Translations under genes and position numbers: made by a program
Shown here: positions 44,311 to 61,184 of the stretch, one piece after another
Position numbering within the stretch: the first letter of the stretch is position 1
Layout of the letters: every line of letters begins with the position of its first letter
The notes under the pieces: generated by a model
The model's input: the letters and a program-made list of their open reading frames with translations, nothing else
What the model was told of the DNA's origin: nothing
Database searches by the model: none
Virus record (IMG/VR): IMGVR_UViG_3300032249_000480
Location: 40,787 to 104,786 of that record
Origin: a virus
Strand: one strand, 5' to 3'
Length of the DNA: 64,000 nucleotides

Positions 44311-45744
44311 TTGAAAAAGTTATTACGTATAGCCCTAATCTTGACCCTAGCATTTTTCCCACTAGTTTTTGCTTTAGATAAAGCAGGGGCAGAAGAAACT
44401 CCTACTGTAACAACTATAGTAACTCCTGGTGGAGACGATGTATCTTATCAAATCCCACTAACAGTAACAGTTGTTTATGACGGTGTTACGTATGAAAGGG
44501 TTTATGCTACGACTAATTCTGTTATCACATTTGGAAGACCTGATGGAACATACTGGGATTATCCATTAACTCCATCTATATCAATTGAATCTCGTGATTG
44601 GTGGGCTTTGCCACAACAGATGCCAGATACTCATTTTATTATTAATGTTAGTGATGGTGGATTTCAAGTAGATGGTGCATATCGTCCTTATGGATCTTTT
44701 ACTGGTGATGTAACAAGTATTGTTATTACTGCACAGATTCAGACAGATAATACTGTTGCTTATACATATGCAGTTAATGGACCTTTACAAGGTAATGAAA
44801 GAACAGGTGCTCGTTTAAATAATGGAACAGTTGTACCTTTAGAACAAGCAAATATTATTGAAGTTGTTGTTCCTCCAGTTTTAGAGCCAGAGCCAATTGC
44901 TCCAACCCCTACGCCTACACCAACGCCTGAGCCTACGCCAACCCCTACTCCTACGCCTGAGCCAATCATTCCAGAACCACAACCAATACCAGTGCCTCAA
45001 CCAGAACCTGTGATTCCTGCTCCAAGACCTGAACCAGTTGTAATTCCTGATCCTCCTGCGGTTATTCCTGATCCACCAGTAGTGGAACCTGAGCCTCCAA
45101 TTGTAGAGCCTGAGCCTCCAACAGAAGAACCTGAACCACCTACACCTATAGAAGAACCTCCTGCAGAAGCAGAAGAACCTCCAGTAGAGGCTGAAGAACC
45201 GCCTTTGGTGGAAGAAGAAGCCCCTAATTTAGTAGAAGAACCACCTTTAGTGGCAGATGAAAATTCTACTGATGAAGAAAAAGAAATTATTGCTGAGGCT
45301 TTAATAGAAGCAGCAAATGGTGAAGCCATTACTGCAGAGGATATAGCAGAAGCAGGTCTTACTTATGCTGACCTACCATCTCAGACTCCTGTTGAAGTTC
45401 GTCAAGATGAAAATGGAAACGAAGTAATTATTACGGCTGAAGTTGCAGCAGCGCTTGTGCTACTAGAAAACCCAGCAGAACTAATAAGCGCAATTTTTAC
45501 TGACCCAGCACAAGCACTTTTGGCTATAGGAAGCATTGGTGCAGATATGTCTGAAGAAGAGCGTGAAGAAGCAACAGAAATGGTTGTTGCAACAGTTGTA
45601 GCAGCAGGTGCAGCAATAAATGCCGCAGGTGCAGCAGCGGGGGCAGCAACATCCACTGGAGGATCTACTGGAAGTAATTCTGGCGGATCAGGTGGTGGAG
45701 GAGCCTCTGGCGAATCCAAGGGAGTAAGGAGAAGAAAACCATGA
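44311..45744 (+). CDS. Secreted proline-rich protein
   Basis: 477 residues from TTG. Signal peptide at 1-28 (KKLLRIALILTLAFFPLVF, AGA-E). A beta domain (30-185) precedes a Pro-rich stretch of about 120 residues (190-315) built of PTP, PEP and EPP repeats, an acidic helical section and a Gly/Ser-rich tail ending RRRKP. The Pro-rich part resembles extensin-like wall-spanning linkers and is a plausible target of the 2OG oxygenases and GT60-type enzyme encoded downstream. The basic end recalls sorting tails, though no LPXTG was seen. Probably host-derived; function unknown. Confidence 0.6.
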   Translation: MKKLLRIALILTLAFFPLVFALDKAGAEETPTVTTIVTPGGDDVSYQIPLTVTVVYDGVTYERVYATTNSVITFGRPDGTYWDYPLTPSISIESRDWWALPQQMPDTHFIINVSDGGFQVDGAYRPYGSFTGDVTSIVITAQIQTDNTVAYTYAVNGPLQGNERTGARLNNGTVVPLEQANIIEVVVPPVLEPEPIAPTPTPTPTPEPTPTPTPTPEPIIPEPQPIPVPQPEPVIPAPRPEPVVIPDPPAVIPDPPVVEPEPPIVEPEPPTEEPEPPTPIEEPPAEAEEPPVEAEEPPLVEEEAPNLVEEPPLVADENSTDEEKEIIAEALIEAANGEAITAEDIAEAGLTYADLPSQTPVEVRQDENGNEVIITAEVAAALVLLENPAELISAIFTDPAQALLAIGSIGADMSEEEREEATEMVVATVVAAGAAINAAGAAAGAATSTGGSTGSNSGGSGGGGASGESKGVRRRKP

Positions 45745-45911
45745 TAAAAAAAATAGTAAAAGATATGATAGACCAATTGTGGACTCTACTTGGTATGTTT
45801 ATTGCCTGGGTAGTCCTTGATGGTTCAGCAAAAACAATAGTAGGTTATGCAATTATAGGAACGTTAGTTGTTTGGGCAATAACTTATCCTATTAGAAATA
45901 GAGATGAATAA
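45741..45911 (+). CDS. Small two-segment membrane protein (possible holin or antiholin)
   Basis: 56 residues. Hydrophobic segments at about 13-28 (LWTLLGMFIAWVVLDG) and 32-49 (TIVGYAIIGTLVVWAITY) with a charged N-terminus and basic/acidic end. It overlaps the Pro-rich gene by ATGA. Size, two segments and place before the holin candidate and endolysin suggest a lysis role; no family recognised. Confidence 0.55.
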   Translation: MIKKIVKDMIDQLWTLLGMFIAWVVLDGSAKTIVGYAIIGTLVVWAITYPIRNRDE

Positions 45912-45947
45912 TAGTATATTTATATATATTATAGAAAGGAGATAAAT

Positions 45948-46244
45948 ATGACTAAGAAAAATATAGAAACAGTAGAGGCACCAACACAAGTTGGATCAGG
46001 AGCAATTGCAAGCATTAATAATATTATTATGCGTATTATTGCTGTTTTTGCAGCATCAGGACTATCAGTTATTGGCGCTGGCGCAGTTGTTGGAATTGAT
46101 ACAATGAGTGCTGTTATTCTTGCAGGTACCCTTGGGGTAGCCACAGTAGTTGAAAAACTTGCTCGTGGGTTCCTAGATGATGGAAAACTAACAGTTGCTG
46201 AGATAAATGCAGCATTCAAAACAGTAGACAAAAAGGCTAATTAA
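45948..46244 (+). CDS. Putative holin
   Basis: 98 residues behind AAAGGAG. Hydrophobic segments near 25-48 (IIMRIIAVFAASGLSVIGAG) and 52-68 (MSAVILAGTLGVATVV), then an amphipathic C-terminus (FLDDGKLTVAEINAAFKTV). This is the plan of actinophage holins with a soluble tail. It would form lesions that release the CHAP endolysin encoded 1.7 kb downstream. Confidence 0.55.
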   Translation: MTKKNIETVEAPTQVGSGAIASINNIIMRIIAVFAASGLSVIGAGAVVGIDTMSAVILAGTLGVATVVEKLARGFLDDGKLTVAEINAAFKTVDKKAN

Positions 46245-46258
46245 TCATTATTAGCCTT
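46233..46258 (+). terminator. Hairpin at the end of the holin gene
   Basis: AAGGCTAA (46233-46240) and TTAGCCTT (46251-46258) pair perfectly around a 10-nt loop that includes the stop. The following tract is poor in T, so termination may be weak. Confidence 0.5.
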
Positions 46259-46260
46259 AC

Positions 46261-46290
46261 TTGACTTGCCTTCTCTATTGATGGTATACT
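46261..46290 (+). promoter_or_regulatory. Promoter (TTGACT-18-TATACT) for the HslV-like gene
   Basis: -35 TTGACT at 46261, spacer 18, extended -10 TGG-TATACT at 46282-46290. The leader has GGAGAGG before GTG 46321. Confidence 0.7.
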
Positions 46291-46303
46291 TGAAATATAC
46301 CAT
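46281..46303 (+). promoter_or_regulatory. Perfect inverted repeat over the -10 box (possible operator)
   Basis: ATGGTATA and TATACCAT are exact inverse copies separated by CTTGAAA. The left arm contains most of the -10 element, so a dimeric repressor bound here would block transcription. It could also fold as an RNA hairpin. Confidence 0.5.
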
Positions 46304-46320
46304 TTTGGAGAGGGCTTTCT

Positions 46321-46848
46321 GTGACTTGTATTGCTGTCGTAAAACAAGATCAAACAATTTATATGGCTGGAGATAGAGGTGCTTCAACAGAAGACTCTAT
46401 ACTAATACTTAAGGCTCCAAAAGTATTTAAAATAGGACCATATCTTTTTGGTTATGCAGGAACAATGGACGGAGAAAGAATTCGTCATAACTTTAAACCT
46501 CCAGTACCAAAACCTAATGTTAATTTAGATAAGTTTATGTATACAGATTTTCTTATTGCCTTGAGAAATTTTTATGAGGCATGGTGGGTAGACATATCAA
46601 AAGATTCTGATTTTGGAATGATAATTGCAATTAAAGGAAGAATCTTTGAGCATAATGCAGTTGACATGTCGTTAACAGAATACGAAGAAGAATATCTTGC
46701 AATGGGTTCAGGTAGTGATTTTGCTCTTGGATCTTTATGGACAACTCAAAATCAAAAAAATGGTAAAAGAAGAGCACAATTAGCAGTAGAAGCAGCAGTA
46801 AAATATTCAACATCTTGCATTGGACCAGTTGACGTAGTAAGCCTTTAA
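46321..46848 (+). CDS. HslV/proteasome-beta-like threonine peptidase
   Basis: 175 residues, the length of HslV. It starts MTC, so removal of Met exposes Thr as the N-terminal nucleophile. Asp18 (AGDRG) and Lys34 fall exactly at mature positions 17 and 33, as in the proteasome beta and HslV catalytic set. GYAGTMDG near 49 and MGSGSDFALG near 132 match conserved HslV loops. There is no propeptide. No HslU-type ATPase gene is seen in the window. It probably forms a ring peptidase acting on host or phage proteins with an ATPase or alone. Its neighbour is hsp20. Confidence 0.8.
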   Translation: MTCIAVVKQDQTIYMAGDRGASTEDSILILKAPKVFKIGPYLFGYAGTMDGERIRHNFKPPVPKPNVNLDKFMYTDFLIALRNFYEAWWVDISKDSDFGMIIAIKGRIFEHNAVDMSLTEYEEEYLAMGSGSDFALGSLWTTQNQKNGKRRAQLAVEAAVKYSTSCIGPVDVVSL

Positions 46849-46857
46849 GGGTATAAT
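46829..46857 (+). promoter_or_regulatory. Promoter (TTGACG-17-TATAAT), leaderless type
   Basis: TTGACG at 46829-46834, exact 17-nt spacer, TATAAT at 46852-46857, then 6 nt to ATG 46864. No RBS. It lies within the end of the HslV-like gene. Confidence 0.72.
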
Positions 46858-46863
46858 TAAAGT

Positions 46864-47046
46864 ATGATCAATGATGAAGATTCTTTAGAGTTTGATATAT
46901 GGTTAGAAAACGGAATTAATCGTGGTTGGATTACAGAACCATTTTGTAATACTCATGATGGAGATCCTTTTATGACAGAAGAAGAGCAACAAGAATGGGA
47001 AGATGGTGGGGATCCCTGCCAAGTAGTATTTAAAATAAAAGAGTAA
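46864..47046 (+). CDS. Small acidic protein
   Basis: 60 residues, strongly acidic (Asp/Glu-rich, EEEQQEWEDGG) with Trp residues and two Cys. The start is fixed by the promoter 6 nt upstream. It lies between the HslV-like and Hsp20 genes. Small acidic proteins in phages are often DNA mimics or inhibitors of host enzymes; nothing specific supports this here. Confidence 0.6.
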   Translation: MINDEDSLEFDIWLENGINRGWITEPFCNTHDGDPFMTEEEQQEWEDGGDPCQVVFKIKE

Positions 47047-47051
47047 AAGTT

Positions 47052-47060
47052 TGATATAAT
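47052..47060 (+). promoter_or_regulatory. Extended -10 promoter (TGA-TATAAT) for hsp20
   Basis: TGATATAAT; the predicted start near 47067 begins a leader of about 49 nt that folds into two hairpins. Confidence 0.62.
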
Positions 47061-47066
47061 ATATAT

Positions 47067-47118
47067 GTACTGCCTACGGGGGTACACTAACTTATTCGCT
47101 TGAAAGGGGAATAATATG
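47067..47118 (+). ncRNA. Hsp20 5' leader with ROSE-like RNA thermometer
   Basis: First hairpin: GTACTGCC (47067-47074) with GGGGGTAC (47078-47085 region) capped by UACG, a stable UNCG tetraloop. Second hairpin: UUAUUCGCUU (47092-47101), loop GAA, AGGGGAAUAA (47105-47114). The ribosome binding AGGGG is fully paired and has one G-G opposition and one U-G pair, as in ROSE-type thermometers where the weak stem melts on warming. The ATG follows 1 nt after the stem. Confidence 0.6.
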
Positions 47119-47529
47119 ATGAACGATCCATGGGCCATTTTTAATGACCCTTTTTTTATTGGGTTTAATAGAAACCTAACACAACTAAACAATGTATATA
47201 AAACAAATAACCAATCCTATCCTCCATATGATCTTCTTAAACTAGATGAAGACACATATGTTTTGTCTTTAGCGGTTGCTGGATTTTCTAAAGAAGACAT
47301 TGATGTATCTGTAGACAATGGATCTCTTGTTATTAAAGGAGAGACTGTAGAAGTTACTGATGCTGAAGTGGTTCACAAGGGTATTGCTAATCGTAAGTTT
47401 ACTCGTACATTTGCTCTTGGTGAATACATGGAAGTAGTTGGAGCAGAACTAAAAGACGGTATGTTGACAATTAAGATTGATCGTATCGTTCCTGAAGAAA
47501 AGAAACCAAAAACAATTAAGATAAAGTAG
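47116..47529 (+). CDS. hsp20: Small heat shock protein, Hsp20/alpha-crystallin family
   Basis: 137 residues. Residues 35-130 are the alpha-crystallin domain (YVLSLAVAGFSKEDIDVSVD, then GSLVIKGETVE and GIANRKFTRTFALGE). The GMLTIKI motif near 117 is followed by a C-terminal PKTIKIK extension carrying the I-x-I contact. It binds unfolding proteins, perhaps capsid or scaffold intermediates during infection. The leader suggests translation is controlled by temperature. Hsp20 genes are known in cyanophages and other aquatic phages. Confidence 0.88.
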   Translation: MMNDPWAIFNDPFFIGFNRNLTQLNNVYKTNNQSYPPYDLLKLDEDTYVLSLAVAGFSKEDIDVSVDNGSLVIKGETVEVTDAEVVHKGIANRKFTRTFALGEYMEVVGAELKDGMLTIKIDRIVPEEKKPKTIKIK

Positions 47530-47540
47530 TATAATATAAT
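47530..47540 (+). promoter_or_regulatory. Overlapping -10 boxes before the candidate small RNA
   Basis: Two TATAAT copies share one base (47530-47535 and 47535-47540). A start 6-8 nt later would coincide with the base of the RNA stem. Confidence 0.5.
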
Positions 47541-47543
47541 AGT

Positions 47544-47628
47544 CCCCACACAGGACCTTAGTGATGGATTAGTTACCCATTTATAATGACCGTGGCCTAC
47601 GTGCCTGAATTACCTGTGTGGGGCTTTT
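47544..47628 (+). ncRNA. Candidate structured small RNA
   Basis: CCCCACACAGG (47544-47554) pairs exactly with CCTGTGTGGGG (47613-47623), enclosing 58 nt and followed by CTTTT. The enclosed part can fold ATGG (47563-47566) with CCAT and a small GGC/GCC helix. With the -10 boxes just upstream, the whole reads as an independent transcript of about 85 nt whose closing stem also works as terminator. It lacks T-arm and anticodon features, so it is not a tRNA. No known family recognised. Confidence 0.6.
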
Positions 47629-47636
47629 AATTATTC

Positions 47637-47645
47637 TGATATAAT
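47637..47645 (+). promoter_or_regulatory. Extended -10 promoter (TGA-TATAAT) for the HNH gene
   Basis: TGATATAAT ends 9 nt before ATG 47655; no RBS is visible, so the leader is at most a few bases. Confidence 0.5.
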
Positions 47646-47654
47646 TAGTTTGCT

Positions 47655-47930
47655 ATGACTGACAAAGAGTTAGTTCAATATAATAAACAAGAGTTTAAGC
47701 AACGCCTAAAACAAATAAAAGAAAAGTCTGGCTGTGTTGATTGTGGAGAAAATAATCATATTGTTTTAGATTTTGATCACTTAAGTAATAAAAAATATAA
47801 TGTTTCAAGAATGATTCATGATGGATTTTCTTGGGCAGCAATTAAAAAAGAAATATCAAAGTGTGAAGTTGTGTGTTCCAATTGTCATAGAATAAGAACT
47901 CACAACAGATTGACAAAAAAAACTGCTTAG
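47655..47930 (+). CDS. HNH-type endonuclease (small)
   Basis: 91 residues. CVDC (27-30) and CSNC (74-77) bind structural zinc, with DFDH (39-42) and CHRIRTHNR giving the HNH core. Free-standing HNH proteins of this kind are common in phages as homing or packaging nucleases. This one is close to a candidate RNA and the lysis gene rather than to terminase. A perfect promoter for the next gene begins inside its end. Confidence 0.75.
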   Translation: MTDKELVQYNKQEFKQRLKQIKEKSGCVDCGENNHIVLDFDHLSNKKYNVSRMIHDGFSWAAIKKEISKCEVVCSNCHRIRTHNRLTKKTA

Positions 47931-47938
47931 TGTATAAT
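47910..47938 (+). promoter_or_regulatory. Consensus sigma-70 promoter (TTGACA-17-TATAAT)
   Basis: TTGACA at 47910-47915, 17-nt spacer, TATAAT at 47933-47938: exact consensus in all three parts. It drives the endolysin, whose leader has AGGAGG. Confidence 0.9.
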
Positions 47939-47963
47939 AGATTATAAGCATAGGAGGCTTAAC

Positions 47964-48596
47964 ATGGCAATTAAAGGATCAGTAGAAGCAATCATTGAAG
48001 TTGCAAAAAAAGAAGTTGGGACAATTGAAGGTCCAAAAGATAATGAAACAAAGTATGGTAAGTGGACTGGTATGAATTTTCAACCATGGTGTCAATCATT
48101 TGTTTCTTGGTGTGCATTTACATCAGGACTAGACCCAAAGAAATATCCAAAGTCTGCATCAACAGTCGCAGCATCTGATTGGTTTAAAAAGAATAATCGT
48201 TGGGCAGATGCACGTAATGATGATCCAACTCCAGGAGATTGGATTTATTTTGATTTTCCAGAAGATGGTGTTAATAGAATTTCTCATGTTGGTATTTGCA
48301 TTAAGAACAATGGAGATGGAACCATTCAAGTTATTGAAGGAAACACTTCTGGAACTGCAAAGGGGGATCAGAGAAACGGCGGAATGTGCGTTGAGAAGAC
48401 TCGTGCATATGTAAAGAATAATGGAAAGAAGTTAATTAATGGTGTTGTTGCTTGGGGTCGCCCAGTTTATGCTGGTGAAGAAAATGTTCAATTACTAAAC
48501 AAGTTAGCAGCACCTGCTAAGTCTACATCTGAAACTGCTACTAAGAAGGCTGCTAAGAAGACATCTGGCAGCGGTAAAGTTAGTCAAGTAAAGTAA
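47964..48596 (+). CDS. CHAP-domain endolysin
   Basis: 210 residues. Residues 10-155 form a CHAP (NlpC/P60-like) amidase/peptidase with Cys43 (PWCQSFVSWC), His108 (ISHVGI) and Glu125/Asn127 (IEGNT) as active site. It cuts peptidoglycan at lysis. The C-terminal 40 residues are Ala/Lys/Ser-rich (KKAAKKTSGSGK), a basic tail that may bind teichoic or other anionic wall polymers. No signal peptide, so it needs a holin. Strong promoter and AGGAGG site. Confidence 0.87.
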   Translation: MAIKGSVEAIIEVAKKEVGTIEGPKDNETKYGKWTGMNFQPWCQSFVSWCAFTSGLDPKKYPKSASTVAASDWFKKNNRWADARNDDPTPGDWIYFDFPEDGVNRISHVGICIKNNGDGTIQVIEGNTSGTAKGDQRNGGMCVEKTRAYVKNNGKKLINGVVAWGRPVYAGEENVQLLNKLAAPAKSTSETATKKAAKKTSGSGKVSQVK

Positions 48597-48797
48597 ATGG
48601 AATCAACAAAGAGAACATTGCTTAAAACAGCAAGTTGGGAAACTTTTCACCTTGTTGGTGTAGCAGGAGTAATTTATTTATTTACTGGTGAATGGGAATA
48701 CGCAAGCCTTGGAGCATTACTATACATTGGTTGGGAAGCACTTGGATACTTTCTTCATGAAAGAGTATGGGCAAAGTTTGGTAAAAAAATTAAATGA
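48597..48797 (+). CDS. DUF2061 membrane protein (first copy)
   Basis: 66 residues. The KRTLLKTASWETFHLVGVAG start, two hydrophobic segments and the closing LGYFLHERVWAKFG match the DUF2061 pattern. It follows the endolysin with no gap and overlaps the next gene by 4 nt. Could be a lysis accessory. A second copy lies at 51280. Confidence 0.7.
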   Translation: MESTKRTLLKTASWETFHLVGVAGVIYLFTGEWEYASLGALLYIGWEALGYFLHERVWAKFGKKIK

Positions 48798-49426
48798 GCA
48801 ATGTTCCAGATAATATTTACATAGATCATATAAAAAAAATTGGAAAAGATGTTAAAAATATAAATGTTTTTGAAAATTTTTTAAATGATGAAGATTATAA
48901 TTATCTGTATGAAGAATGTTTAAATTCAGAATGGTCTGAAAATTACAGGCAAAATCTTAGAAAAGATAAAACAATTTTAAGCAATAACGCAAAACAAATA
49001 TTTAAAAATGTTGCAAATATTTTAAGTAATAAAATAAAAGAAATTTATAATGTAGATGTTTCAATATCAAGTGAACCATTTTTAATAAGATGGGATATGG
49101 GTTCTGAAATGGGCGAACATATTGACGATTTTTCTGTTTTTCATTATCATTTTGCTGCTATTTTGTATTTAAATGATAACTACTCTGGAGGAGAAATATG
49201 CTTTCCAGATTATAACCTTACAATTAAACCAAAAGGAAACTCTTTAGTTTTATTTCCTGGCAATAAATATTATTCTCATGAAGTATTAAAAAATACATCT
49301 GGAGAAAGATACACTATGCCAATGTGGTTTAAGTTAAATGATTCTGATTTTCAAGGAACTGGAACTGCATTTAACCTTATAGATATAAACGATTATAAAT
49401 ATAATAATTGGGAAAACAAAATATAG
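48794..49426 (+). CDS. 2OG-Fe(II) oxygenase, prolyl-4-hydroxylase-like
   Basis: 210 residues. Iron ligands H109-x-D111 (GEHIDDF) and H162 (YSHEV), with R172 ten residues later for 2-oxoglutarate. The YLNDNYSGGEICFPD segment between them is characteristic of the P4H-type family. It hydroxylates a substrate using O2, Fe(II) and 2OG. A close motif match (YLNDDYSGGEIDF) occurs in the gene at 60573. Substrate unknown; a Pro-rich secreted protein and a GT60-type enzyme are encoded nearby. Confidence 0.82.
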   Translation: MSNVPDNIYIDHIKKIGKDVKNINVFENFLNDEDYNYLYEECLNSEWSENYRQNLRKDKTILSNNAKQIFKNVANILSNKIKEIYNVDVSISSEPFLIRWDMGSEMGEHIDDFSVFHYHFAAILYLNDNYSGGEICFPDYNLTIKPKGNSLVLFPGNKYYSHEVLKNTSGERYTMPMWFKLNDSDFQGTGTAFNLIDINDYKYNNWENKI

Positions 49427-49443
49427 AAATGGAGAAATAAATA

Positions 49444-49587
49444 ATGGGAAAGCATAACGATAAAATTAAAAAGGCATTGGAGCAAAGAATTGCTGCAACT
49501 CCTAATAAAGGTGGCTACAAGATTCCAGGATCAATGAATAAAAAGAAAACTGGATATCGTGGAATTAAGGCAAACAACGCAAGATAA
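49444..49587 (+). CDS. Small basic protein
   Basis: 47 residues, very basic (MGKHNDKIKKALEQRI, then GSMNKKKTGYRGIKANN). GGAG lies before the ATG and the stop overlaps the next start (TAATG). Probably binds nucleic acid or is a virion internal peptide. No family recognised. Confidence 0.6.
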   Translation: MGKHNDKIKKALEQRIAATPNKGGYKIPGSMNKKKTGYRGIKANNAR

Positions 49588-49775: not shown

Positions 49776-49776
49776 G

Positions 49777-50034: not shown

Positions 50035-50441
50035 TGTACGAATATCATGTTAAATCTATTACAAATGTAGTAGATGGGGATACTATTGATGTTGATATTG
50101 ATTTAGGATTTGATATTTCATTTAGTTCAAGAGTTAGGCTGGCTGGTATTGATACACCAGAATCTAGAACAACTAACAAGGCTGAAAAAGTTCTTGGTCT
50201 TGAGTCAAAAGATTATTTAAAGAAAAAACTAAAAGATGCAAAGTCTGTTATTATTAAAACTGAAAAAATGGATTCATCTGAAAAGTATGGTCGTATTCTT
50301 GGCTGGCTTTACATTAATGGAGATACCGTTTCAGTAAATGATCACATGATTAATGATGGCTATGCTTGGGGATATCTTGGTGAAACTAAAGTTAAAGATT
50401 TTGAAGCACTAGCAAAAGTAAGAGCAAAAGTTAAAAAATGA
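50034..50441 (+). CDS. Thermonuclease (staphylococcal nuclease-like)
   Basis: 135 residues of SNase fold: VVDGDTIDVDID holds the calcium-binding Asp residues, RVRLAGIDTPESR the catalytic Arg and Glu, and EKYGRILGWLY the second Arg. No signal peptide, so it acts inside the cell, possibly on host DNA or RNA. Its stop overlaps the kinase gene start by 4 nt. Confidence 0.85.
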   Translation: MYEYHVKSITNVVDGDTIDVDIDLGFDISFSSRVRLAGIDTPESRTTNKAEKVLGLESKDYLKKKLKDAKSVIIKTEKMDSSEKYGRILGWLYINGDTVSVNDHMINDGYAWGYLGETKVKDFEALAKVRAKVKK

Positions 50442-51199
50442 TTATTCAAATTATTGGTCTTCCAGGTTCTGGAAAAACAGAACTAGCAAAGGCACTTAAA
50501 GAACGTATTAACGCTATTCATCTTAATGCAGATGAAGTTCGTGCAACAGTTAACTCAGACTTAGGGTTTAGTCCAGACGATAGACTTGAGCAGGCACGAC
50601 GTATGGGAGAAATGGCAAGACTAATTTCAAAGCAGGGTATTGCTCCAGTAATCGTTGACTTTGTTTGCCCTACAGACTTAACTCGTGCAGCATTTGGAAA
50701 GCCAGACATTTTGGTATTCATGAACACGATTGAAGAAGGAAGATTTGAAGATACTAACAAGATGTTTGAAATGCCAACAAACTATGACATTGCTTTTATA
50801 AGCCATGAATGGGATGCAAATGAAAAAGCATCTGTAATCATTAATCAGTTTAGCCTACATGATTGGTCTGCACCTACAACTCTTATGCTGGGTAGGTACC
50901 AGCCATGGCACGAAGGCCACCACGCCCTTTATAAGGAGGCTGGTAAGAGAACTGACCAAGTTCTTCTTGGAGTCCGTAATACCTATAACACAAGTGAAAA
51001 GGATCCACTTAAGTTTGATCAGGTAAAAGAATATATTGCCAAAGATGAATTTATGGATGGAGCATTAGTATTAAGATTACCTAACATTACCAATATTGTT
51101 TATGGTCGTGATGTAGGATATAAAATTGAGCAAGTAGATTTGGGGGCAGATATTCATGCTATTTCGGCTACTGAAAAACGCAAGCAACTTGGTCTTTAA
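50438..51199 (+). CDS. APS kinase-like / HxGH nucleotidyltransferase fusion
   Basis: 253 residues. Residues 1-140 resemble adenylylsulfate kinase: Walker A GLPGSGKT (7-14), then LNADEVRATVNSDLGFSPDD and RRMGEMARLI. Residues 145-253 form an NMNAT/cytidylyltransferase-like domain with GRYQPWHEGHH (HxGH at 158-161) and a closing ISATEKRK motif. The first domain would make PAPS or phosphorylate a related substrate; the second transfers a nucleotide. A sulfotransferase-like gene at 63271 could use PAPS. NAD salvage is an alternative role. Confidence 0.75.
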   Translation: MIIQIIGLPGSGKTELAKALKERINAIHLNADEVRATVNSDLGFSPDDRLEQARRMGEMARLISKQGIAPVIVDFVCPTDLTRAAFGKPDILVFMNTIEEGRFEDTNKMFEMPTNYDIAFISHEWDANEKASVIINQFSLHDWSAPTTLMLGRYQPWHEGHHALYKEAGKRTDQVLLGVRNTYNTSEKDPLKFDQVKEYIAKDEFMDGALVLRLPNITNIVYGRDVGYKIEQVDLGADIHAISATEKRKQLGL

Positions 51200-53877: not shown

Positions 53878-54159
53878 ATGAAACAGCATTTATGGAAAGA
53901 TGATGCAAGATGTTTAGACATGGATACTAATCTATTTTTTGAAAAGTATGAAGATGAAGAATCTTTAAGACCAGCAATAGATAGCATATGTAAACAATGC
54001 CCAGTATTAAAAACATGTTTTGCCGTAGGAATTTCCAATAAAGAGTGGGGAGTTTGGGGAGGAATCTTCATAGAAAATGGTAAAATATCTAGAGAATTTA
54101 ATAAACATAAATCTAAACAAGATTGGGGAAACACGTGGAAATCCTTAACAATGGATTAG
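53878..54159 (+). CDS. WhiB-family iron-sulfur transcription regulator
   Basis: 93 residues. The four iron-sulfur cysteines C12, C38, C41 and C47 (ARCLD; CKQCPVLKTC) and the GVWGG turn at 58-62 define the WhiB family, which is restricted to Actinobacteria and their phages. The basic tail (NKHKSKQDWGN) would contact DNA. In mycobacteriophage TM4 a WhiB protein alters host septation and blocks superinfection; here it may redirect host sigma factor use. Strong evidence for an actinobacterial host. Confidence 0.9.
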   Translation: MKQHLWKDDARCLDMDTNLFFEKYEDEESLRPAIDSICKQCPVLKTCFAVGISNKEWGVWGGIFIENGKISREFNKHKSKQDWGNTWKSLTMD

Positions 54160-54172: not shown

Positions 54173-54412
54173 ATGGCACTTGGCTATACAGATGAAATGC
54201 GTAAGGCTTTTCATGCAATCCCAGCACCTAAAGGTTTTGGTGTTGATTTAATTGATAATACTTATTTTATTACAATTCGTATTGATGAAAAAGCATTTCT
54301 TTATTTAAATCATGATCAAAAAATGGAAGCATTTGAATATGTTATTAAAGTTCAAAAGGCTTTAGAGGCTTCAGGGGCTGTTGTTCAAGTTGTTAGAAAA
54401 CCATTAAAGTAA
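54173..54412 (+). CDS. Small hypothetical protein
   Basis: 79 residues, alpha/beta: helix (YTDEMRKAFHAIPA), strands (GVDLIDNTYFITIRIDEKAF), then a long helix. It overlaps the glycosyltransferase start by one base (TAATG). No family recognised; a partner of the transferase is possible from position only. Confidence 0.55.
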   Translation: MALGYTDEMRKAFHAIPAPKGFGVDLIDNTYFITIRIDEKAFLYLNHDQKMEAFEYVIKVQKALEASGAVVQVVRKPLK

Positions 54413-55329
54413 TGTCAATATTTATTTCTGTTGCAAGTTATCGTGATCCACATCTTCAACTAACACTTAAAAGTGCTGTTGAAAATGCAAATAATCCTGC
54501 AGGTTTATTCTTTGGTATTGTTAATCAAGATACTGCTAGGAATGAAGTTGATTATTCCTTTTTGCCAGATTATTCTGTAATTAAAATGCATCCAAGAAAT
54601 GCAAAAGGTGTTGGCTATGCAAGAAGCAAGGCAATGTCTTTATACAATGGAGAAGATTATTTTTTACAGGTTGATTCTCATACTCAGTTTTCAAAAGACT
54701 GGGATTTAAAATCCATAAAACAATTAAAGACTGCACAGGAAATTGCAGGACATAAAAAAGTTATAATGTCCTGCTATCCTGGTCCTTATAGTTTAGATAA
54801 TAATCAGGTATTCATACATACAATATCTACAGAAGAACATCCTGTAGAGCCAATGAAGCATATTGCTAAACTAAGAGTTGACGATCAGTGGTCTGCAATC
54901 AGGGTTCCAATGGATAGTCCAAATTCTGAAAGACCAGAACTTTCTAATACAGTTCTTGGAGGATATATTTTTGCTACTGGTAATATTGTAAATGAAATTC
55001 CATATGATGAAGAAATAAGTTTTATGGGTGAAGAAATTTGTTTTGCAATGAGGGCTTGGACAAGGGGATGGGACATATATTCACCATCAATACCAATTGT
55101 TTATCATTTTTATAGAAGGCCAGGATATCCTAAAGTATGGTCTGATGATGTAGTTAGAGAACAGAACTGGGATCAACTTCAAGAAATATCAAAAGAAAAA
55201 CAAAGAAAAGTTTTATGTGGTATTGAACAAGGAATCATGGGAGCAGGATCTATTAGAACTATAAAAGATTATGAAGAATTTATAGGTTATGATTTTGAAA
55301 AAATATATAACAGGTTGACAAACAAATGA
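54412..55329 (+). CDS. GlcNAc-transferase, GT60 / Skp1-type
   Basis: 305 residues. IFISVASYRDPHLQLTLKSA at the N-terminus, ARSKAMSLYNGEDYFLQVDS with the metal-binding D88-S-H90, HTQFSKDWD, and a late GEEICFAMRAWTRGWDIYSP are the signature blocks of the family that includes Dictyostelium Skp1 GlcNAc-transferase. That enzyme adds GlcNAc to hydroxyproline. Here the acceptor is unknown, but P4H-type oxygenases are encoded at 48794 and 60573. No membrane segment, so it acts in the cytoplasm. Confidence 0.82.
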   Translation: MSIFISVASYRDPHLQLTLKSAVENANNPAGLFFGIVNQDTARNEVDYSFLPDYSVIKMHPRNAKGVGYARSKAMSLYNGEDYFLQVDSHTQFSKDWDLKSIKQLKTAQEIAGHKKVIMSCYPGPYSLDNNQVFIHTISTEEHPVEPMKHIAKLRVDDQWSAIRVPMDSPNSERPELSNTVLGGYIFATGNIVNEIPYDEEISFMGEEICFAMRAWTRGWDIYSPSIPIVYHFYRRPGYPKVWSDDVVREQNWDQLQEISKEKQRKVLCGIEQGIMGAGSIRTIKDYEEFIGYDFEKIYNRLTNK

Positions 55330-55366: not shown

Positions 55367-55735
55367 ATGCTAACAGCACTTATTGTTACAATAATCCTTG
55401 CTTTGTTATTTTTTGCAAAAGGTTTACAATTGGCTATGCGACTAAACAAATTAAAAGAATTAGTTGCAATACAGGAAGTAAAAATAGAGGCTAACTCTGA
55501 TCCAGTTAAAGAAGACTTTTTAAAATTTGTGTCTGATTCTCGTGAATGGGCATTTGAATATATAGAAGAAGTTCAAATTGCATTAAACAATTTTAAAGAA
55601 AAAGTTGAACCACAGATTGAATATTTTGATAAATACGGAGATGTTCTTTCTAACCAAAGGCCAGATTATGAATCAATGAAAAAAATTTCTCAGGCATATA
55701 AAGAACTAATACTTATATTGCCAGAGAATAAATAG
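55367..55735 (+). CDS. Membrane-anchored coiled-coil protein
   Basis: 122 residues. N-terminal hydrophobic segment (LTALIVTIILALLFFAKG) followed by about 95 residues of charged helix. The plan resembles spanin-like or i-spanin proteins, but no partner lipoprotein is seen and actinobacterial hosts usually lack an outer membrane. Shares a promoter with two small membrane genes. Confidence 0.55.
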   Translation: MLTALIVTIILALLFFAKGLQLAMRLNKLKELVAIQEVKIEANSDPVKEDFLKFVSDSREWAFEYIEEVQIALNNFKEKVEPQIEYFDKYGDVLSNQRPDYESMKKISQAYKELILILPENK

Positions 55736-55744: not shown

Positions 55745-55903
55745 ATGAAAGACATTATACTATCAACACTAACAGGTTTTGGATGTGGCGTTGTTTTCGC
55801 AGCATTCAAATTGCCAGTACCAGCACCACCAGTTTTTGCGGGAGTCGCAGGAATTATTGGTTTATGGATTGGCTTCACAATACTAACACGAGTTATATCC
55901 TAG
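55745..55903 (+). CDS. XapX-domain small membrane protein
   Basis: 52 residues. Two hydrophobic segments with the GFGCGVVFAAFKLPVPAPPV core and a Gly-spaced second helix (VAGIIGLWIGFTILTR): the XapX pattern. These proteins are widespread and uncharacterised. GGGGGA lies before the ATG. It could serve as a holin-type protein. Confidence 0.72.
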   Translation: MKDIILSTLTGFGCGVVFAAFKLPVPAPPVFAGVAGIIGLWIGFTILTRVIS

Positions 55904-55912
55904 GAGGAAATA

Positions 55913-56179
55913 ATGAATAAAGCACAACTACAAGCACTACTAGCATCATACGGACGATCAGTTCTTGGTGCAGGTCTTGCACTATACATGTCTGGGGTAA
56001 CAGACCCTAAGACACTGGCATATTCTCTAATTGCTGCTCTTGCACCAGTTGCATTAAGAGCAATTAATCCAAACGACACAGCATTTGGTCGTTTGCCAGA
56101 TGCCTCAACAGTTGAAGCAGCAGTAAAGAATGTTAAGGTAAAGAAGGCTCCTGCAAAGAAAGCAGCAGCAAAGAAGTAA
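55913..56179 (+). CDS. Small membrane protein with Lys/Ala tail
   Basis: 88 residues behind AGGAGG. A glycine-rich hydrophobic part (SYGRSVLGAGLALYMSG, then LAYSLIAALAPVALRAI) is followed by a soluble hinge and a histone-like end (VKKAPAKKAAAKK). It may be a holin or a membrane-to-DNA tether. GC-richer codons than its neighbours point to high expression. It ends the rightward block before a terminator. Confidence 0.6.
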   Translation: MNKAQLQALLASYGRSVLGAGLALYMSGVTDPKTLAYSLIAALAPVALRAINPNDTAFGRLPDASTVEAAVKNVKVKKAPAKKAAAKK

Positions 56180-56194
56180 TTTAATTACTTATAA

Positions 56195-56230
56195 GATAGC
56201 CAGTCCACAACGGGCTGGCTTTTCTTATTT
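56195..56230. terminator. Terminator between convergent operons
   Basis: AGCCAGTCC (56195-56203) pairs with GGGCTGGCT (56209-56217), loop ACAAC, followed on the plus strand by TTTTTTCTTATTT. It ends rightward transcription and may also slow leftward transcripts. Confidence 0.88.
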
Positions 56231-57259
56231 ATTCATAATATATTCGTAACGCTCTTTAAGATTTTTAGGATCAAAGTTAAAACATCCTAATCTAAAGGCT
56301 TCTTTTTTTGCTACTTCTTGATCATTGCTATTAGCATAATTATCAACTAATTCAGCCAACTTAATAATATCAGGCTCATAAACATCAACAACAACTCTAG
56401 CCTTAAATTCTCCTATTTTATTAGCAGGCACCACCCATTCCTCTGGAAGCACGGTATTGTTAGGAGAAATATCAGTCATAAACACAGGAAGACCACTCAT
56501 AAGAGCCTCATTCATAGGCAAACAAAGTCCTCCATAGCGTCTAGGAAGGATTAGAGCGTCAAACCCACTGTATAGGTCCTCTTGATTCTCTAAGTCCCTA
56601 CAATCAATTGTAATGCGTGGATCTTTTATCTCAATATCTAGTGGTTCTTGTGTTCTTATTACCAATTCATAATCAGCCTTGGAATACCTTAACATTTCTA
56701 TAACACTCTCAGTGCCGTTTCTATCTTTTGTTGCTGCCGTACCCAAAATATGCAAAAATCTTTTATGTTTTTTAGATAAATTATTTTCTCTAGCATTTTT
56801 AAAATTGTCTGGATTTGTTGGTGGAGGCAGATGAGTTAGTTTAGTTTGATGACCAAATACTCTTGCAACTTCATCAAAACCCCAAAGACTAGGACTAAGC
56901 AGATGATATGCCAATGGCTTATATTGATCCATCATATTTTCAAAAAATTCATAATTATATTGTTGAAAAGTTTTAACACCATAGCGCCCAGCAAGTGCAA
57001 CAAAATCTTTATGATAAAAAGTTTCGCATGTTAAAATAGCATCTAAACCTTGAATAAATCTTTTGCATGAATTAATATCTGGATAACCATATTGATCTTG
57101 AACGTTATAACCTTCATACCATTCTGGATGTTGTTTTTTCTTTTTAAATTCTGAAAAATCAATAAGCAAAACTTTCTCAGGATTCAACATGTGTACAAGT
57201 TCCCTTGTTTGATTACCAAGTCCACTATTGTCTGATCTTGCTATAATTCCTAATCTCAT
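56225..57259 (-). CDS. GT-B glycosyltransferase (GT4-like)
   Basis: 344 residues from the ATG at 57259 that overlaps the upstream stop as ATGA; an earlier ATG at 57274 is less likely. The N-terminal domain starts MRLGIIARSDNSGLGNQ, typical of sugar-donor enzymes. The C-terminal domain has LHILGTAATKDRNGTESVIE, and LILPRRYGGLCLPMNEALMSGLPVFMTD gives the donor-binding E-x7-E-like region. It adds a sugar from a nucleotide donor to an unknown acceptor. Last gene of a five-gene leftward operon. Confidence 0.8.
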   Translation of the reverse strand: MRLGIIARSDNSGLGNQTRELVHMLNPEKVLLIDFSEFKKKKQHPEWYEGYNVQDQYGYPDINSCKRFIQGLDAILTCETFYHKDFVALAGRYGVKTFQQYNYEFFENMMDQYKPLAYHLLSPSLWGFDEVARVFGHQTKLTHLPPPTNPDNFKNARENNLSKKHKRFLHILGTAATKDRNGTESVIEMLRYSKADYELVIRTQEPLDIEIKDPRITIDCRDLENQEDLYSGFDALILPRRYGGLCLPMNEALMSGLPVFMTDISPNNTVLPEEWVVPANKIGEFKARVVVDVYEPDIIKLAELVDNYANSNDQEVAKKEAFRLGCFNFDPKNLKERYEYIMNK

Positions 57260-58017
57260 TCTGTATACCCCCATGCTTGATCATCTGCAGTAAACTTTCT
57301 TGTTCCTGCTCTGCCATCCAAATGTGCAGATCTTTTAATATTTCCTTCTGGATGATATATGTGTAGTTTGTGCATTTCCCAACCCATTTGAGAAAATTTG
57401 TTATATGGAAGTATATGATCTTGCACTGCTCCATGAAAAGTATCTTCAATAAATTCCCTATCTGGCATTATAGGCAAAATAATATCTCTATAATAGTCAA
57501 CAGTTGTAAGGTGTGGACGCTGACTCCACTGGGCTGTTTCTAAAAATTCTTCATTTAATTTAAACATTAAATGTTTGTGTGGATCAGGAATTGATGCTTC
57601 AAAATGAAATCTAATTGTTTTGCCTTGTCCTCTTTCAATAAAATTAATACATTTATCCCAATCAATTGGCTGATCTGTTACAAGTGGAGCATCTCCTTCA
57701 ACATAAAGCATTAATGGTGTTTTAATCATATTTATTGTTTTAGCCATCATAGTAGTTTGATGTGAAAAACGATCAAAAATTATAGGAAGAAGTTTTGTGT
57801 CTTCATGTAATGCTTTCCATAATATCCTATTTTTATATTCATCATAATCATTTTTTCTATTTTGTCTTTCATCTCTTAGTCCATCAATTTGTATAATAAT
57901 TTCATTTGTTGGAAAATGGTATCTAATTGACCTTAATGTTTCATCAAGAATATGTGTATCAGGATGACTAGGAAGAACAGATGTTACTACAACAATTGTT
58001 ACATCATCTTTGTTCAT
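57256..58017 (-). CDS. Putative GT-A glycosyltransferase
   Basis: 253 residues. VTIVVVTSVLPSHPDTHILD at the N-terminus and LYVEGDAPLVTD near residue 105, an acidic metal-site-like loop, fit a GT2-like fold. A C-terminal block with EDTFHGAVQDHILP may hold the base. Coupled by ATGA to the next gene and by 14 nt overlap to the previous one. Acceptor unknown. Confidence 0.65.
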   Translation of the reverse strand: MNKDDVTIVVVTSVLPSHPDTHILDETLRSIRYHFPTNEIIIQIDGLRDERQNRKNDYDEYKNRILWKALHEDTKLLPIIFDRFSHQTTMMAKTINMIKTPLMLYVEGDAPLVTDQPIDWDKCINFIERGQGKTIRFHFEASIPDPHKHLMFKLNEEFLETAQWSQRPHLTTVDYYRDIILPIMPDREFIEDTFHGAVQDHILPYNKFSQMGWEMHKLHIYHPEGNIKRSAHLDGRAGTRKFTADDQAWGYTE

Positions 58018-58864
58018 TTAGGTCCTCCATTATTTCATTAAATAAATCTCTTTTGAATTTAATCCACCAAGATACTGCCTGATGCATATTGTTTGGATAG
58101 TTACTATATAAGTTTACCATTAAACTTGATAAATCTTCCCAATAATTTACAGATACTATTGGCATTGTTTGCTTAAATAATGGACCAAAATAGTTTGGCT
58201 TTTCGTCTTTTGGTGTTGTGCTATCAACTATTGGATAACATAATAATTCCAAGGCTTCGTAAAATCTAAAAGAATCAAGAACCACTATTCCAGAAGGGCA
58301 GGGTATAAATTTAGATCTAGCCATATTACTATAATAAACATCTGGGATATCTCCTTGTGTAAAGCCTTCAGTAAATTTATATATTGTGTTAGGTATATTT
58401 GGCAACACTTTTGATAGTTGCTTCCTTCTATTATGATTTATTTGACCGCTAAAATATAAATCAATGTCTTTTGTTTTATAGGTTGGAGCGTATTCTTTAA
58501 AATGTTGAGGAGCACCTTGTGGAAGTTTTTTATACTTTTCATGTTTATCATGTGGATATTGTATCCATATTGATGCATTACGATGAGTTATCTTATCTGC
58601 ATCAAACAGCCCTGCTTCATCACCCATTACAAAAAGAACTACTCTTCCTATATTGTTTAATTCAGCAGATATCTTTTCTTCTAAACCTGCATTAGATGGT
58701 CCAGGTATTGCAACAAATGCTTTATCACAATATTCTAATGATTTTACATTAACTTGTTCAATATTTTTTCTTTCACAAAATTCTTTTAAAATGCCATAAT
58801 CCCATTTATTTGCAGCAGAATCTGTTCCTTCAGCAGAATAAAGGTATAGTTTAAATTGGCTCAT
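58004..58864 (-). CDS. Putative exostosin-like / GT-B glycosyltransferase
   Basis: 286 residues from ATG 58864 (an in-frame ATG at 58882 is possible; neither has a clear RBS). Segments DIDLYFSGQINHNRRKQLSK and MARSKFIPCPSGIVVLDSFR, then RFYEALELLCYPIVDS, match the exostosin/GT47-like donor-binding half. It likely extends the glycan. Overlaps both neighbouring genes in the operon. Confidence 0.65.
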   Translation of the reverse strand: MSQFKLYLYSAEGTDSAANKWDYGILKEFCERKNIEQVNVKSLEYCDKAFVAIPGPSNAGLEEKISAELNNIGRVVLFVMGDEAGLFDADKITHRNASIWIQYPHDKHEKYKKLPQGAPQHFKEYAPTYKTKDIDLYFSGQINHNRRKQLSKVLPNIPNTIYKFTEGFTQGDIPDVYYSNMARSKFIPCPSGIVVLDSFRFYEALELLCYPIVDSTTPKDEKPNYFGPLFKQTMPIVSVNYWEDLSSLMVNLYSNYPNNMHQAVSWWIKFKRDLFNEIMEDLNEQR

Positions 58865-59564
58865 AAAGGAAGTGAACCTCATGTTGATAATCTAAATAAG
58901 TTTCCTTATATCCCATGCCCTTAATCCACTGTCTAAGATCATATAGGTATTCATTCCATTGCTGTATCATAAATTCTGGATGACCAGATAGCCAAATCTT
59001 TGGTTTAAATTCTCTCATTACTTTTTCTGCACCACCCAACACACGCCACTCACTGCCCTCTACGTCTAAAGAAATTGCGGTAGGTGGTTTAATACCATGA
59101 TCATAAACACAAGAGTCTATAGTAATTTGACCATAGTTAGCACCCTCAAGATATAGTTCTTTAAATCCATGAGCAGCCTCAATTGTTTGATTAGCCTCTG
59201 GTGGAAATTCGCTATAGTAAATACGAGCAAGATCATTAACTTTGTCAGATGCAAATCCAGGAATACATGCTAATGGCATTTCTAAATTGTTTGCTTCCCA
59301 TAACAAAGGAAAATGAGACCAAACTTTTGGATTAGGTTCAAACAAAACAACTTCAGCACCCCACATTTGGCACAAAGCAGGGAACTCTCCTTCTTCTGCT
59401 CCAACATAGTAAACAACATCTCCATTGCCAAGTACTTCATGCATAGATTTAAGTCTAGGTTTTTCCCACCCATGATCTTGATACCAATCTGGCCTTACTG
59501 CACGATGTTCTGGCAACACTATTTCAAATTCTCCATTGATCAGAGACTTAATCATTTCAGTCAT
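58851..59564 (-). CDS. FkbM-family SAM-dependent methyltransferase
   Basis: 237 residues from ATG 59564, which overlaps the upstream stop (ATGA) and has AAAGGAG before it. Segments DVVYYVGAEEGEFPALC, VVLFEPNPKVW (SAM-binding acidic loop) and TAISLDVEGSEWRVLGGA are FkbM signatures. Family members O-methylate sugars and small molecules. In the centre of a glycosyltransferase operon it probably caps or modifies the glycan. Confidence 0.82.
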   Translation of the reverse strand: MTEMIKSLINGEFEIVLPEHRAVRPDWYQDHGWEKPRLKSMHEVLGNGDVVYYVGAEEGEFPALCQMWGAEVVLFEPNPKVWSHFPLLWEANNLEMPLACIPGFASDKVNDLARIYYSEFPPEANQTIEAAHGFKELYLEGANYGQITIDSCVYDHGIKPPTAISLDVEGSEWRVLGGAEKVMREFKPKIWLSGHPEFMIQQWNEYLYDLRQWIKGMGYKETYLDYQHEVHFLYEPI

Positions 59565-60514
59565 ATCTTTAACTCCTTTAATATAGTTGCCCATCTGTCT
59601 ACATATGTATGCTCATCTATTGTTCTATCATGTCCAGCAAGGCGAATAGACTCTCTTTCTTCGTTATGCTCTAAGTAATAGTCAATTTTATTTTTTAGAT
59701 CTGTAAGATCACCATGCTTGTAGAATACAACTTCTTCATCAGTAAACAAATCATGAAGCCCATCAATGTCAGGGTAGATAGTAAATCCACCACGACCAGT
59801 AGACTCAAACAATCTATCACTTGTATAGTAAGGATAGTTAAACCCTATGTTAAGGCTATCTCCAATTGCAATTTTGCTACGTGCATAGATTCTGTTTAAA
59901 TCATTACCACGCACAGTTCCAGTATCACCATCTCCACCCACATGAAGAAATCTTTTACCATAAGTTGCTCTTAAGAAATCTATTAATTGTGGACGGTATG
60001 GATATTCATGATGATAACGCTTACTACCAACAAAGATTACATCATAGTCAAAAGACTCTCCATCGTAATGGTCATGTAGATAGCACTCTTTACCAAACAC
60101 ACCTGCTGGCAAAAAATGTCCTTTAACATTTGTATTTTCATTAAACCAATCAGACATTAATTTATCTACTGTAAAGAAATGACCAATTGTTTTATAAAAA
60201 TTATCTTTTTCTAAATCTTTTTGACGATCTAAACCAAACCACAAATCAAGATGATAAGTCATTGTTGGTATATTTAGTTCTTTGAGTTGCTCAAGAACAG
60301 TATCCATGCTTATATTTCCTGTTGTTTGCCAGCCATGTGTGTGTACCCAGACAAATAGATCGCTATCTTTTGCAAATCTCAGTATTGTGTCTGTACTTTC
60401 TTGTGCTTCTTGTAGTTTAACTACTTTGTGCCCTAAAGATTCTAGGCTTTTAGCATGATGGTTTTCACTACTATAAGATACCTGAAAGTTACCAAGAAAT
60501 GTTATTGTTGCCAT
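59561..60514 (-). CDS. GT-B glycosyltransferase (CgeB-like)
   Basis: 317 residues, first gene of the operon. The N-terminal Rossmann domain has ITFLGNFQVSYSSENHHAKS and IPTMTYHLDLWFGLDR. The C-terminal half has DYDVIFVGSKRYHHEYPYRP and DRLFESTGRGGFTIYPDIDG, as in CgeB/DUF3880-type transferases, with the conserved Glu for donor ribose. Translation is probably coupled to a 7-codon upstream frame. The acceptor may be phage DNA, tail or a surface protein. Confidence 0.8.
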   Translation of the reverse strand: MATITFLGNFQVSYSSENHHAKSLESLGHKVVKLQEAQESTDTILRFAKDSDLFVWVHTHGWQTTGNISMDTVLEQLKELNIPTMTYHLDLWFGLDRQKDLEKDNFYKTIGHFFTVDKLMSDWFNENTNVKGHFLPAGVFGKECYLHDHYDGESFDYDVIFVGSKRYHHEYPYRPQLIDFLRATYGKRFLHVGGDGDTGTVRGNDLNRIYARSKIAIGDSLNIGFNYPYYTSDRLFESTGRGGFTIYPDIDGLHDLFTDEEVVFYKHGDLTDLKNKIDYYLEHNEERESIRLAGHDRTIDEHTYVDRWATILKELKI

Positions 60515-60537
60515 TAAGCGTTAGTCAATCTTTGCAT
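60514..60537 (-). CDS. Leaderless 7-codon upstream frame
   Basis: ATG at 60537, seven codons (MQRLTNA) and stop TAA that overlaps the transferase start as TAATG. The -10 box ends 7 nt before this ATG. With no RBS at the transferase itself, ribosomes may reach it by re-initiation. Confidence 0.4.
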   Translation of the reverse strand: MQRLTNA

Positions 60538-60544
60538 ATTAATG

Positions 60545-60553
60545 ATTATATCA
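60545..60553 (-). promoter_or_regulatory. Extended -10 promoter (TGA-TATAAT) of the glycosyltransferase operon
   Basis: A perfect TGATATAAT on the minus strand, upstream of the mini-frame and the first transferase gene. No good -35. Confidence 0.62.
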
Positions 60554-60572
60554 GGTTTTCAATATTATATTA

Positions 60573-61184
60573 TTATGTATGAGTAATCCAATTTACAACA
60601 GCAAACTTTTCTCCAGATTCAACTGGTAGCGCTTCGTGTGCAAATAAAAAATTTGAAGGGAAAATTACCATAGAGTTTGCTTTTGGCTTAAATTTTATTC
60701 CAATATATTTAAAGTCAATTTCTCCTCCAGAGTAATCGTCATTTAAATATATAAGATAGGATATAACTCTATTATTATGTGACCCCCAATCATTATGAAA
60801 ATTAAACTTTTGACCACCTCTATATCTTAAAAGTGTGTTTGTTTTTTCTGGATCATTCATATATGGTCCTTGAGGATATTCTTTGGTGTACATGTCAATT
60901 CCAGTTTTTATATGAACATTAAAAGAGACTGCTAGTTTGCCTATAATTTGATAAAAAGGATCTTGACTTATTAAAGATTTTGGATTCATACCTAAAGAAT
61001 CATTGTTTCTATATTTAATATTAATTTTATCATTATCTTTATATCCTACTTTTGCTGTTTCCCATTTTGCAGTTGATTCTGGATTATTACTTATTTCATA
61101 AACATCTTTCATTATTGTTTCATAATTGTCTAGAATATCAGGTATTACCATTAGTCCTGGGAAAATTATATTATTATTAGTCAT
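60573..61184 (-). CDS. 2OG-Fe(II) oxygenase, prolyl-4-hydroxylase-like
   Basis: 203 residues. Iron ligands H130-x-D132 (NFHNDWG) and H183 (FAHEALP), with K193 for 2-oxoglutarate exactly ten residues on, as in true P4H enzymes. YLNDDYSGGEIDF joins it to the 48794 protein. It is just upstream of the glycosyltransferase operon, so its product hydroxyl may be the sugar acceptor. The -10 box 5 nt before the ATG suggests leaderless translation. Confidence 0.83.
   Translation of the reverse strand: MTNNNIIFPGLMVIPDILDNYETIMKDVYEISNNPESTAKWETAKVGYKDNDKINIKYRNNDSLGMNPKSLISQDPFYQIIGKLAVSFNVHIKTGIDMYTKEYPQGPYMNDPEKTNTLLRYRGGQKFNFHNDWGSHNNRVISYLIYLNDDYSGGEIDFKYIGIKFKPKANSMVIFPSNFLFAHEALPVESGEKFAVVNWITHT

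Follow-up and report, generated by a model that had tools for sequence, protein, structure and literature searches.

Glycosyltransferase and prolyl-hydroxylase-like genes of a lake phage, probably of actinobacteria: one pathway or a mosaic of cassettes

The interval 44311-61184 of the window, a 64,000-nucleotide stretch covering positions 40787-104786 of the 104,786-bp IMG/VR virus record IMGVR_UViG_3300032249_000480, combines glycosyltransferase (GT) genes with genes for 2-oxoglutarate (2OG)-Fe(II) oxygenases resembling prolyl 4-hydroxylases (P4H). The initial annotation had joined these oxygenases, a GT60-type N-acetylglucosamine (GlcNAc) transferase, an operon of further GTs and a secreted proline-rich protein into one hydroxylation-glycosylation pathway of the Skp1/extensin kind. 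Comparison with related phages does not support such a pathway from these genes, as they are not co-inherited and the linker of the supposed target protein is variable. We modestly favour reading the interval, in a group of WhiB-carrying (actino)phages, as a mosaic of three cassettes that are inherited independently: a core operon of five genes (four probable GTs and an FkbM methyltransferase), an optional GT60 enzyme, and sporadic P4H/PKHD-type oxygenases. The hydroxylation-glycosylation chemistry itself is not refuted; the idea is plausible, but appears to have been tied to the wrong genes.

Inheritance of the cassettes in related phages

All genes named in the initial annotation are real open reading frames. 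Those of the cassettes, with the WhiB-like gene that marks their position, are as follows.

48794-49426, + strand: P4H/PKHD-type 2OG-Fe(II) oxygenase; PF13640 at 48 bits (cut-off 27); HID109...H162...R
53878-54159, + strand: WhiB-like regulator; syntenic anchor in relatives and actinophage marker
54412-55329, + strand: GT60 (PF11397) glycosyltransferase; PF11397 at 197.8 bits (cut-off 21); DSH at 88-90
56225-57274, - strand: group-1-like glycosyltransferase, last operon gene; weak PF13692, PHROG glycosyltransferase at 1e-13; syntenic in most relatives
57256-58017, - strand: operon gene without a Pfam or PHROG family, judged GT-A-like by inspection alone; co-conserved with the operon
58004-58882, - strand: GT47/RXYLT1-like (exostosin) glycosyltransferase; RXYLT1_C at 27.8 bits (cut-off 27); co-conserved
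58851-59594, - strand: FkbM-type methyltransferase; PF05050 at 46.4 bits; co-conserved
59561-60514, - strand: CgeB-like glycosyltransferase, first operon gene; PF13524 at 87.6 bits; co-conserved
60573-61184, - strand: P4H/PKHD-type 2OG-Fe(II) oxygenase; PF13640 at 65 bits (cut-off 27); HND130...H183...K

Relatives were collected as the best 80 matches each to three anchors: 53304 (the gene left of WhiB), 46321 and the GT60 gene. The contigs are fragments, the loci share ancestry and are not independent, and the profile used to find oxygenases was built from these phages. Statements of absence are therefore weaker, whereas the adjacency of an oxygenase and a GT described further below is robust to these limits.

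The operon order 56225-57256-58004-58851-59561, following WhiB and the 55367 gene, was found in 41 of the 56 covered loci, and 33 of these 41 have no GT60. The GT60 gene, which is optional and inserted between WhiB and the gene at 55367, occurs in eight of the 56 loci, each time together with the operon. Oxygenase genes in relatives are inserted elsewhere, mainly between the endolysin gene and 53304. In 47 hotspot loci, GT60 and oxygenases showed no positive association (oxygenase in 1/7 loci with GT60 against 12/40 without, p = 0.66). The association of oxygenases with the operon was negative ([[3,8],[22,4]]; p = 0.001 over all loci, p = 0.13 after thinning of near-copies). An oxygenase was present in only 6 of the 86 GT60-anchored viral loci.

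The closest relatives lead to the same conclusion. Four loci (L004-L007) carry GT60 and the operon at 86-97% identity with no oxygenase there, and both 48794 and 60573 are missing from them. In this genome, 60573 is inserted between the operon and three tRNA genes, 58 bp upstream of the operon, and 48794 is a sporadic insert between a CHAP endolysin gene and the next small genes; it is absent from the same site in L005, L006 and G014, whose neighbouring genes match. G041 has the operon but neither GT60 nor an oxygenase, and in G030 three oxygenase genes occupy the exact site that the operon holds here. The operon, GT60 and the oxygenases are thus exchangeable cassettes. The expected co-occurrence of GT60 with P4H-like genes thus failed for the named genes in the hotspot loci, in the GT60-anchored loci and in the closest relatives.

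The GT60 enzyme and the operon

The assignment of 54412 to GT60 stands, with PF11397 far above its cut-off, and polypeptide alpha-GlcNAc-transferase activity on hydroxyproline or Ser/Thr would be predicted for it. Ten of 12 aligned homologues retain its DSH sequence, a DxH-type metal/donor motif. A search of solved structures with this enzyme gave no usable match. The phage GT60s group in a separate clade with 100/100 support, and a placement nested within the bacterial clade that is coupled to P4H was rejected. In the XacN1 jumbo phage, GT60 has a carbamoyltransferase among its neighbours and no annotated oxygenase.

The five operon genes (60514-56225, - strand) overlap one another by 14-34 bp. 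The claim of one operon thus holds for the GTs and the FkbM methyltransferase, but not for GT60, which lies 0.9 kb away on the opposite (+) strand.

The proline-rich secreted protein

The supposed target of the pathway is the protein encoded at 44311.

44311-45744, + strand: secreted protein of no known family; signal-peptide-like N-terminus, variable domain, Pro-rich linker (nucleotides 44872-45253) and conserved C-terminal region

Its description as a secreted protein with about 120 residues of PTP/PEP repeats was borne out: the 127 residues of the linker include 51 Pro, 10 Thr and 27 Glu but not a single Ser, and its repeats are PTP, PEP and PP-E. The likeness to extensins was not, as the Ser-Pro(3-5) repeats of that kind are absent from a linker without serine. 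Among homologues the C-terminal region is common, the N-terminal domains differ (on inspection, G031 and G041 have a PA14-like one) and the linkers contain between 3 and 30 Pro in every 60 residues. Linkers can be poor in proline although the operon is present (G041, L211), and oxygenase presence was not associated with a Pro-rich linker (p = 0.45). These comparisons mark the Pro-rich stretch as a variable linker. GT60 enzymes also start mucin-type glycans on Ser/Thr, for which hydroxylation is not needed (PMC8724618), so the Thr of the PTP repeats would serve as an acceptor without the action of a hydroxylase.

The region 43200-45744 encodes two secreted proteins between the terminase and a holin-like gene, members of a modular family with variable N-terminal domains and linkers. 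The protein at 43200, used as a host-search query, had no match in 397 Actinomycetota genomes, a result that, without a positive control, says nothing about the host.

The oxygenases of the window

The two oxygenases with full motifs were confirmed: 48794 and 60573 both exceed the PF13640 cut-off and have the complete iron triad HxD...H and the distal K/R for 2OG. By profile, and for 60573 also by structural model, they are nearer to P4H, PHD and PKHD enzymes than to AlkB or TET. The AlphaFold model of 60573 (pLDDT 82) has as its top PDB matches the viral P4H vCPH, PHD2, the Dictyostelium PHD and other P4Hs; beside P4H, the oxygenase profiles also match PKHD, P3H and lysyl hydroxylases. A third, diverged oxygenase had been proposed as well.

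36963-37502, + strand: diverged 2OG oxygenase; HRD107...H155; no Pfam family; paralogue of L016:10090-10683

HxD...H is invariant in the alignment that holds this protein, and its AlphaFold model (pLDDT 91) has a 2OG-oxygenase fold, with SptF and AsqJ as best matches followed at similar scores by PHD2 and AlkB. The confident fold indicates a 2OG oxygenase, yet these mixed matches do not assign it as a P4H. The fold comparison thus places 48794 and 60573 on the peptidyl-hydroxylase side, away from AlkB and nucleotide hydroxylases, but is ambiguous for 36963. At least three further oxygenases are encoded in this phage outside the window.

In two other loci, six to seven divergent 2OG oxygenase genes stand in tandem, accompanied by SDR, radical-SAM/SPASM, DUF6065 and TauD genes (L127:6980-15243, G023; L154:8314-14292, G012). 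A 480-residue fusion in G030 (L120:13105-14547) combines a weak match to luciferase-like monooxygenases with a C-terminal 2OG oxygenase.

A conserved GT60-like/oxygenase trio outside the window

A different set of genes lies 6-8 kb left of the window in the same genome, at L016:12695-14789 (= G000:32695-34789).

L016:12695-13525: GT60-like glycosyltransferase; PF11397 at 22.2 bits (cut-off 21)
L016:13529-14128: OX-a, P4H-like oxygenase, directly after the GT60-like gene
L016:14115-14789: OX-b, P4H-like oxygenase, after OX-a

All 28 loci with OX-a (14 distinct at 90% identity) have the GT60-like gene directly upstream on the same strand, at intergenic distances of -140 to +33 bp, and OX-b follows OX-a in 14 of the 28. 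OX-a is 45-74% identical among relatives. In G030, the order of the trio runs on into a carbamoyltransferase gene. The GT60-like set aligned to the GT60 profile (hhalign, 98.3%, E 2.4e-14 over 193 columns); PF11397 matches are weak and found in 6 of 10 members, and the DSH motif is not kept. By these alignments, the OX-a partner is a diverged relative of GT60 rather than a plain family member. The best matches of the oxygenase profiles among solved structures were P4H, P3H, PKHD and PHD2, and 60573 of the window is related to OX-b (45% over 101 residues).

As the GT60-like/OX-a adjacency is without exception and the named genes are not co-inherited, it is the trio that behaves like a hydroxylation-glycosylation unit and is more likely to be the true unit of this genome. 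Here, a peptidyl hydroxylase would make the hydroxyl that the GT60-like enzyme then glycosylates. More tentatively, the trio may be a dedicated phage module that hydroxylates and then glycosylates a protein, a prokaryotic-virus counterpart of the P4H/GT60 chemistry of protists, with the adjacent or fused GT60-P4H proteins of bacteria as its possible cellular counterpart.

GT60 and P4H-like oxygenases in bacteria

GT60 is rare in bacteria (6 of 337 genomes of one class and 4 of 321 of another, seed genomes counted). Among 41 bacterial GT60 loci identified through their similarity to the phage enzyme, 17 encode a P4H-like oxygenase no more than 10 kb away or as part of the same protein. In eight SAR86-type loci, a P4H-like gene adjoins GT60 divergently and is the sole PF13640 gene of a 0.9-1.4-Mb genome. 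Several alphaproteobacteria encode a single protein of 1,300-2,450 residues in which several GT60 domains, at most four, are joined to one or two 2OG-oxygenase domains and mostly also to an AhpC/TSA domain. The remaining GT60 genomes of the class samples had no oxygenase within the short flanks seen, which argues that the coupling is bound to certain lineages. Among the papers accessible to a literature search, none dealt with GT60 and a prolyl hydroxylase in bacteria.

The SAR86-type pair has a fixed place before a MazG-like gene (L238:4346-5996, L243, L246, L247, L249, L256, L272, L239). The proteins of the alphaproteobacterial fusion loci are mostly very large (L252:5957-13315, L250:8003-14023, L254:8030-14233, L263, L265, L242, L260).

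Proposed mechanism and alternatives

The gene families, synteny, operon overlaps and conserved adjacency are observed; the acceptors, the order of steps and the hydroxylated residue in the following scheme are inferred. The operon and GT60 enzymes would be cytoplasmic, draw on host nucleotide sugars and assemble a short, methyl-capped glycan attached directly to a protein made by the phage; GT60 would prime it at Ser/Thr or at a hydroxylated residue. Direct cytoplasmic glycosylation seems most likely because neither a signal peptide at the start of the operon and GT60 proteins nor a lipid-carrier step can be recognised; a scan of the operon found no recognised lipid-linked-sugar initiating enzyme or flippase among its genes. 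It would also be analogous to virion glycosylation in mycobacteriophages, as actinobacteriophages are known to glycosylate their own virion proteins (PMC12363180).

Several observations weigh against the combination of a cassette mosaic with glycosylation of a phage protein. In L008, an oxygenase gene lies immediately before GT60. Relatives with GT60 mostly have Pro-rich linkers, an association that is not significant (p = 0.08) and is confounded by the type of C-terminal region, but that keeps the proposed Pro-rich target conceivable. A count giving p = 0.04 was discarded, as it was biased towards Pro-rich partial proteins; the unbiased count is the one given here. The loci compared are non-independent and lie on fragmentary contigs. 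The operon could equally modify a glycan of the host envelope.

This last point leads to the main alternative, which we consider rather unlikely: the operon and GT60 would remodel cell-wall or surface glycans of the host, for example to block superinfection, and the oxygenases would be unrelated tailoring enzymes. GTs with an FkbM methyltransferase would suit glycan building, such a role was proposed for the GTs of related freshwater phages (PMC10202952), and oxygenase clusters of relatives sit among SDR, radical-SAM/SPASM, TauD and carbamoyltransferase genes. However, no recognised initiating enzyme or flippase was seen in the operon.

Modification of collagen-like or Gly-rich tail fibres by the oxygenases is improbable. 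Genes for collagen-like GXQ and Gly-rich adhesin-like proteins do lie 9-20 kb left of the oxygenase cluster of this genome, but 114 of the 192 Y positions of the collagen-like proteins are Gln and only one is Pro, and we rejected them as P4H substrates. A tie between oxygenases and fibre genes was likewise rejected, as the distances from oxygenases to fibre-like genes are no shorter than in shifted controls (4/23 within 8 kb, 4.8 expected, p = 0.64).

We regard as very improbable the pathway of the initial annotation, in which 48794 and 60573 would hydroxylate prolines of 44311, 54412 would add GlcNAc and the operon would extend the glycan, as on Skp1. All of its parts are within one genome, P4H-GT60 coupling does occur in bacteria, a title cited in PMC8724618 names a dual-function P4H-GT60 protein of a plant-pathogenic protist, and most relatives with GT60 have Pro-rich linkers. 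Against this, the nearest relatives keep GT60 and the operon without the oxygenases, the linker varies and can be poor in proline where the operon is present, GT60 enzymes can prime Ser/Thr unaided by a hydroxylase, and the target has a signal peptide where the enzymes have none visible. Finding P4H, GT60 and a Pro-rich protein in one gene list can thus point to a pathway that is not borne out when relatives are compared.

Hydroxylation followed by glycosylation of DNA bases is known from other phages. Such hypermodification by these genes is the least probable alternative and was rejected for want of support in the gene scans: OX-b matches Tet_JBP weakly (21 bits, below the 34.9 cut-off), but the window oxygenases have no match to that profile above cut-off, the oxygenases match peptidyl hydroxylases far better than TET or AlkB, no base hydroxymethylase was found among the genes scanned, and operon and oxygenases are not co-inherited.

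The phage and its genome

The source is a tailed phage, as genes for a portal, protease, major head protein, tape measure, DnaB, primase and terminase are recognisable in the genome.

41345-43147, + strand: terminase large subunit; 53% identity to Karimac-type Streptomyces phages

The terminase is 75-87% identical to that of at least 80 environmental contigs. The host is probably an actinobacterium; WhiB-like genes have been used as a marker of freshwater actinophages (PMC10202952). At 50438-51199, an APS-kinase-like P-loop kinase is fused to a cytidylyltransferase-like (NadR-like) domain. The genes at L015:14584-16998 and G000:19784-21157 encode collagen-like proteins, whose Gly-X-Gln repeats contain hardly any proline, and after them Gly-rich adhesin-like proteins.

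Comparison with known systems

If the trio does hydroxylate and glycosylate a protein, we know of no earlier phage to which hydroxylation-dependent glycosylation has been assigned. Together with the GT60-P4H pairs of SAR86 and alphaproteobacteria, the trio would then bear on the origin of Skp1-type chemistry. The Skp1 pathway (PhyA, Gnt1/GT60, PgtA and AgtA; Dictyostelium, Toxoplasma, Pythium) likewise has a PHD/P4H-type oxygenase and a GT60, of the cytoplasmic type, in one organism. However, the named phage genes are uncoupled in relatives, and Skp1, a eukaryotic protein, is not an expected substrate in a phage. The downstream GTs also differ, being GT2, GT74, GT77 or GT31/GT8 in the Skp1 pathway (PMC8724618) and of other families in the phage. 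The best fold match of 60573, vCPH (the viral P4H of Paramecium bursaria chlorella virus 1, PDB 5c5t), is 16-17% identical to it, so that its substrate preference is not transferable.

Mycobacteriophages with glycosylated virions (Che8, Corndog, Myrna; PMC12363180) also encode several GTs outside their structural genes. Unlike here, GT60 or P4H is not reported in the accessible part of that source. T4-like cyanophages also encode several small PF13640 oxygenases of unknown function per genome (PMC3037559), whereas in the phages studied here one oxygenase lineage has a conserved GT60-like partner.

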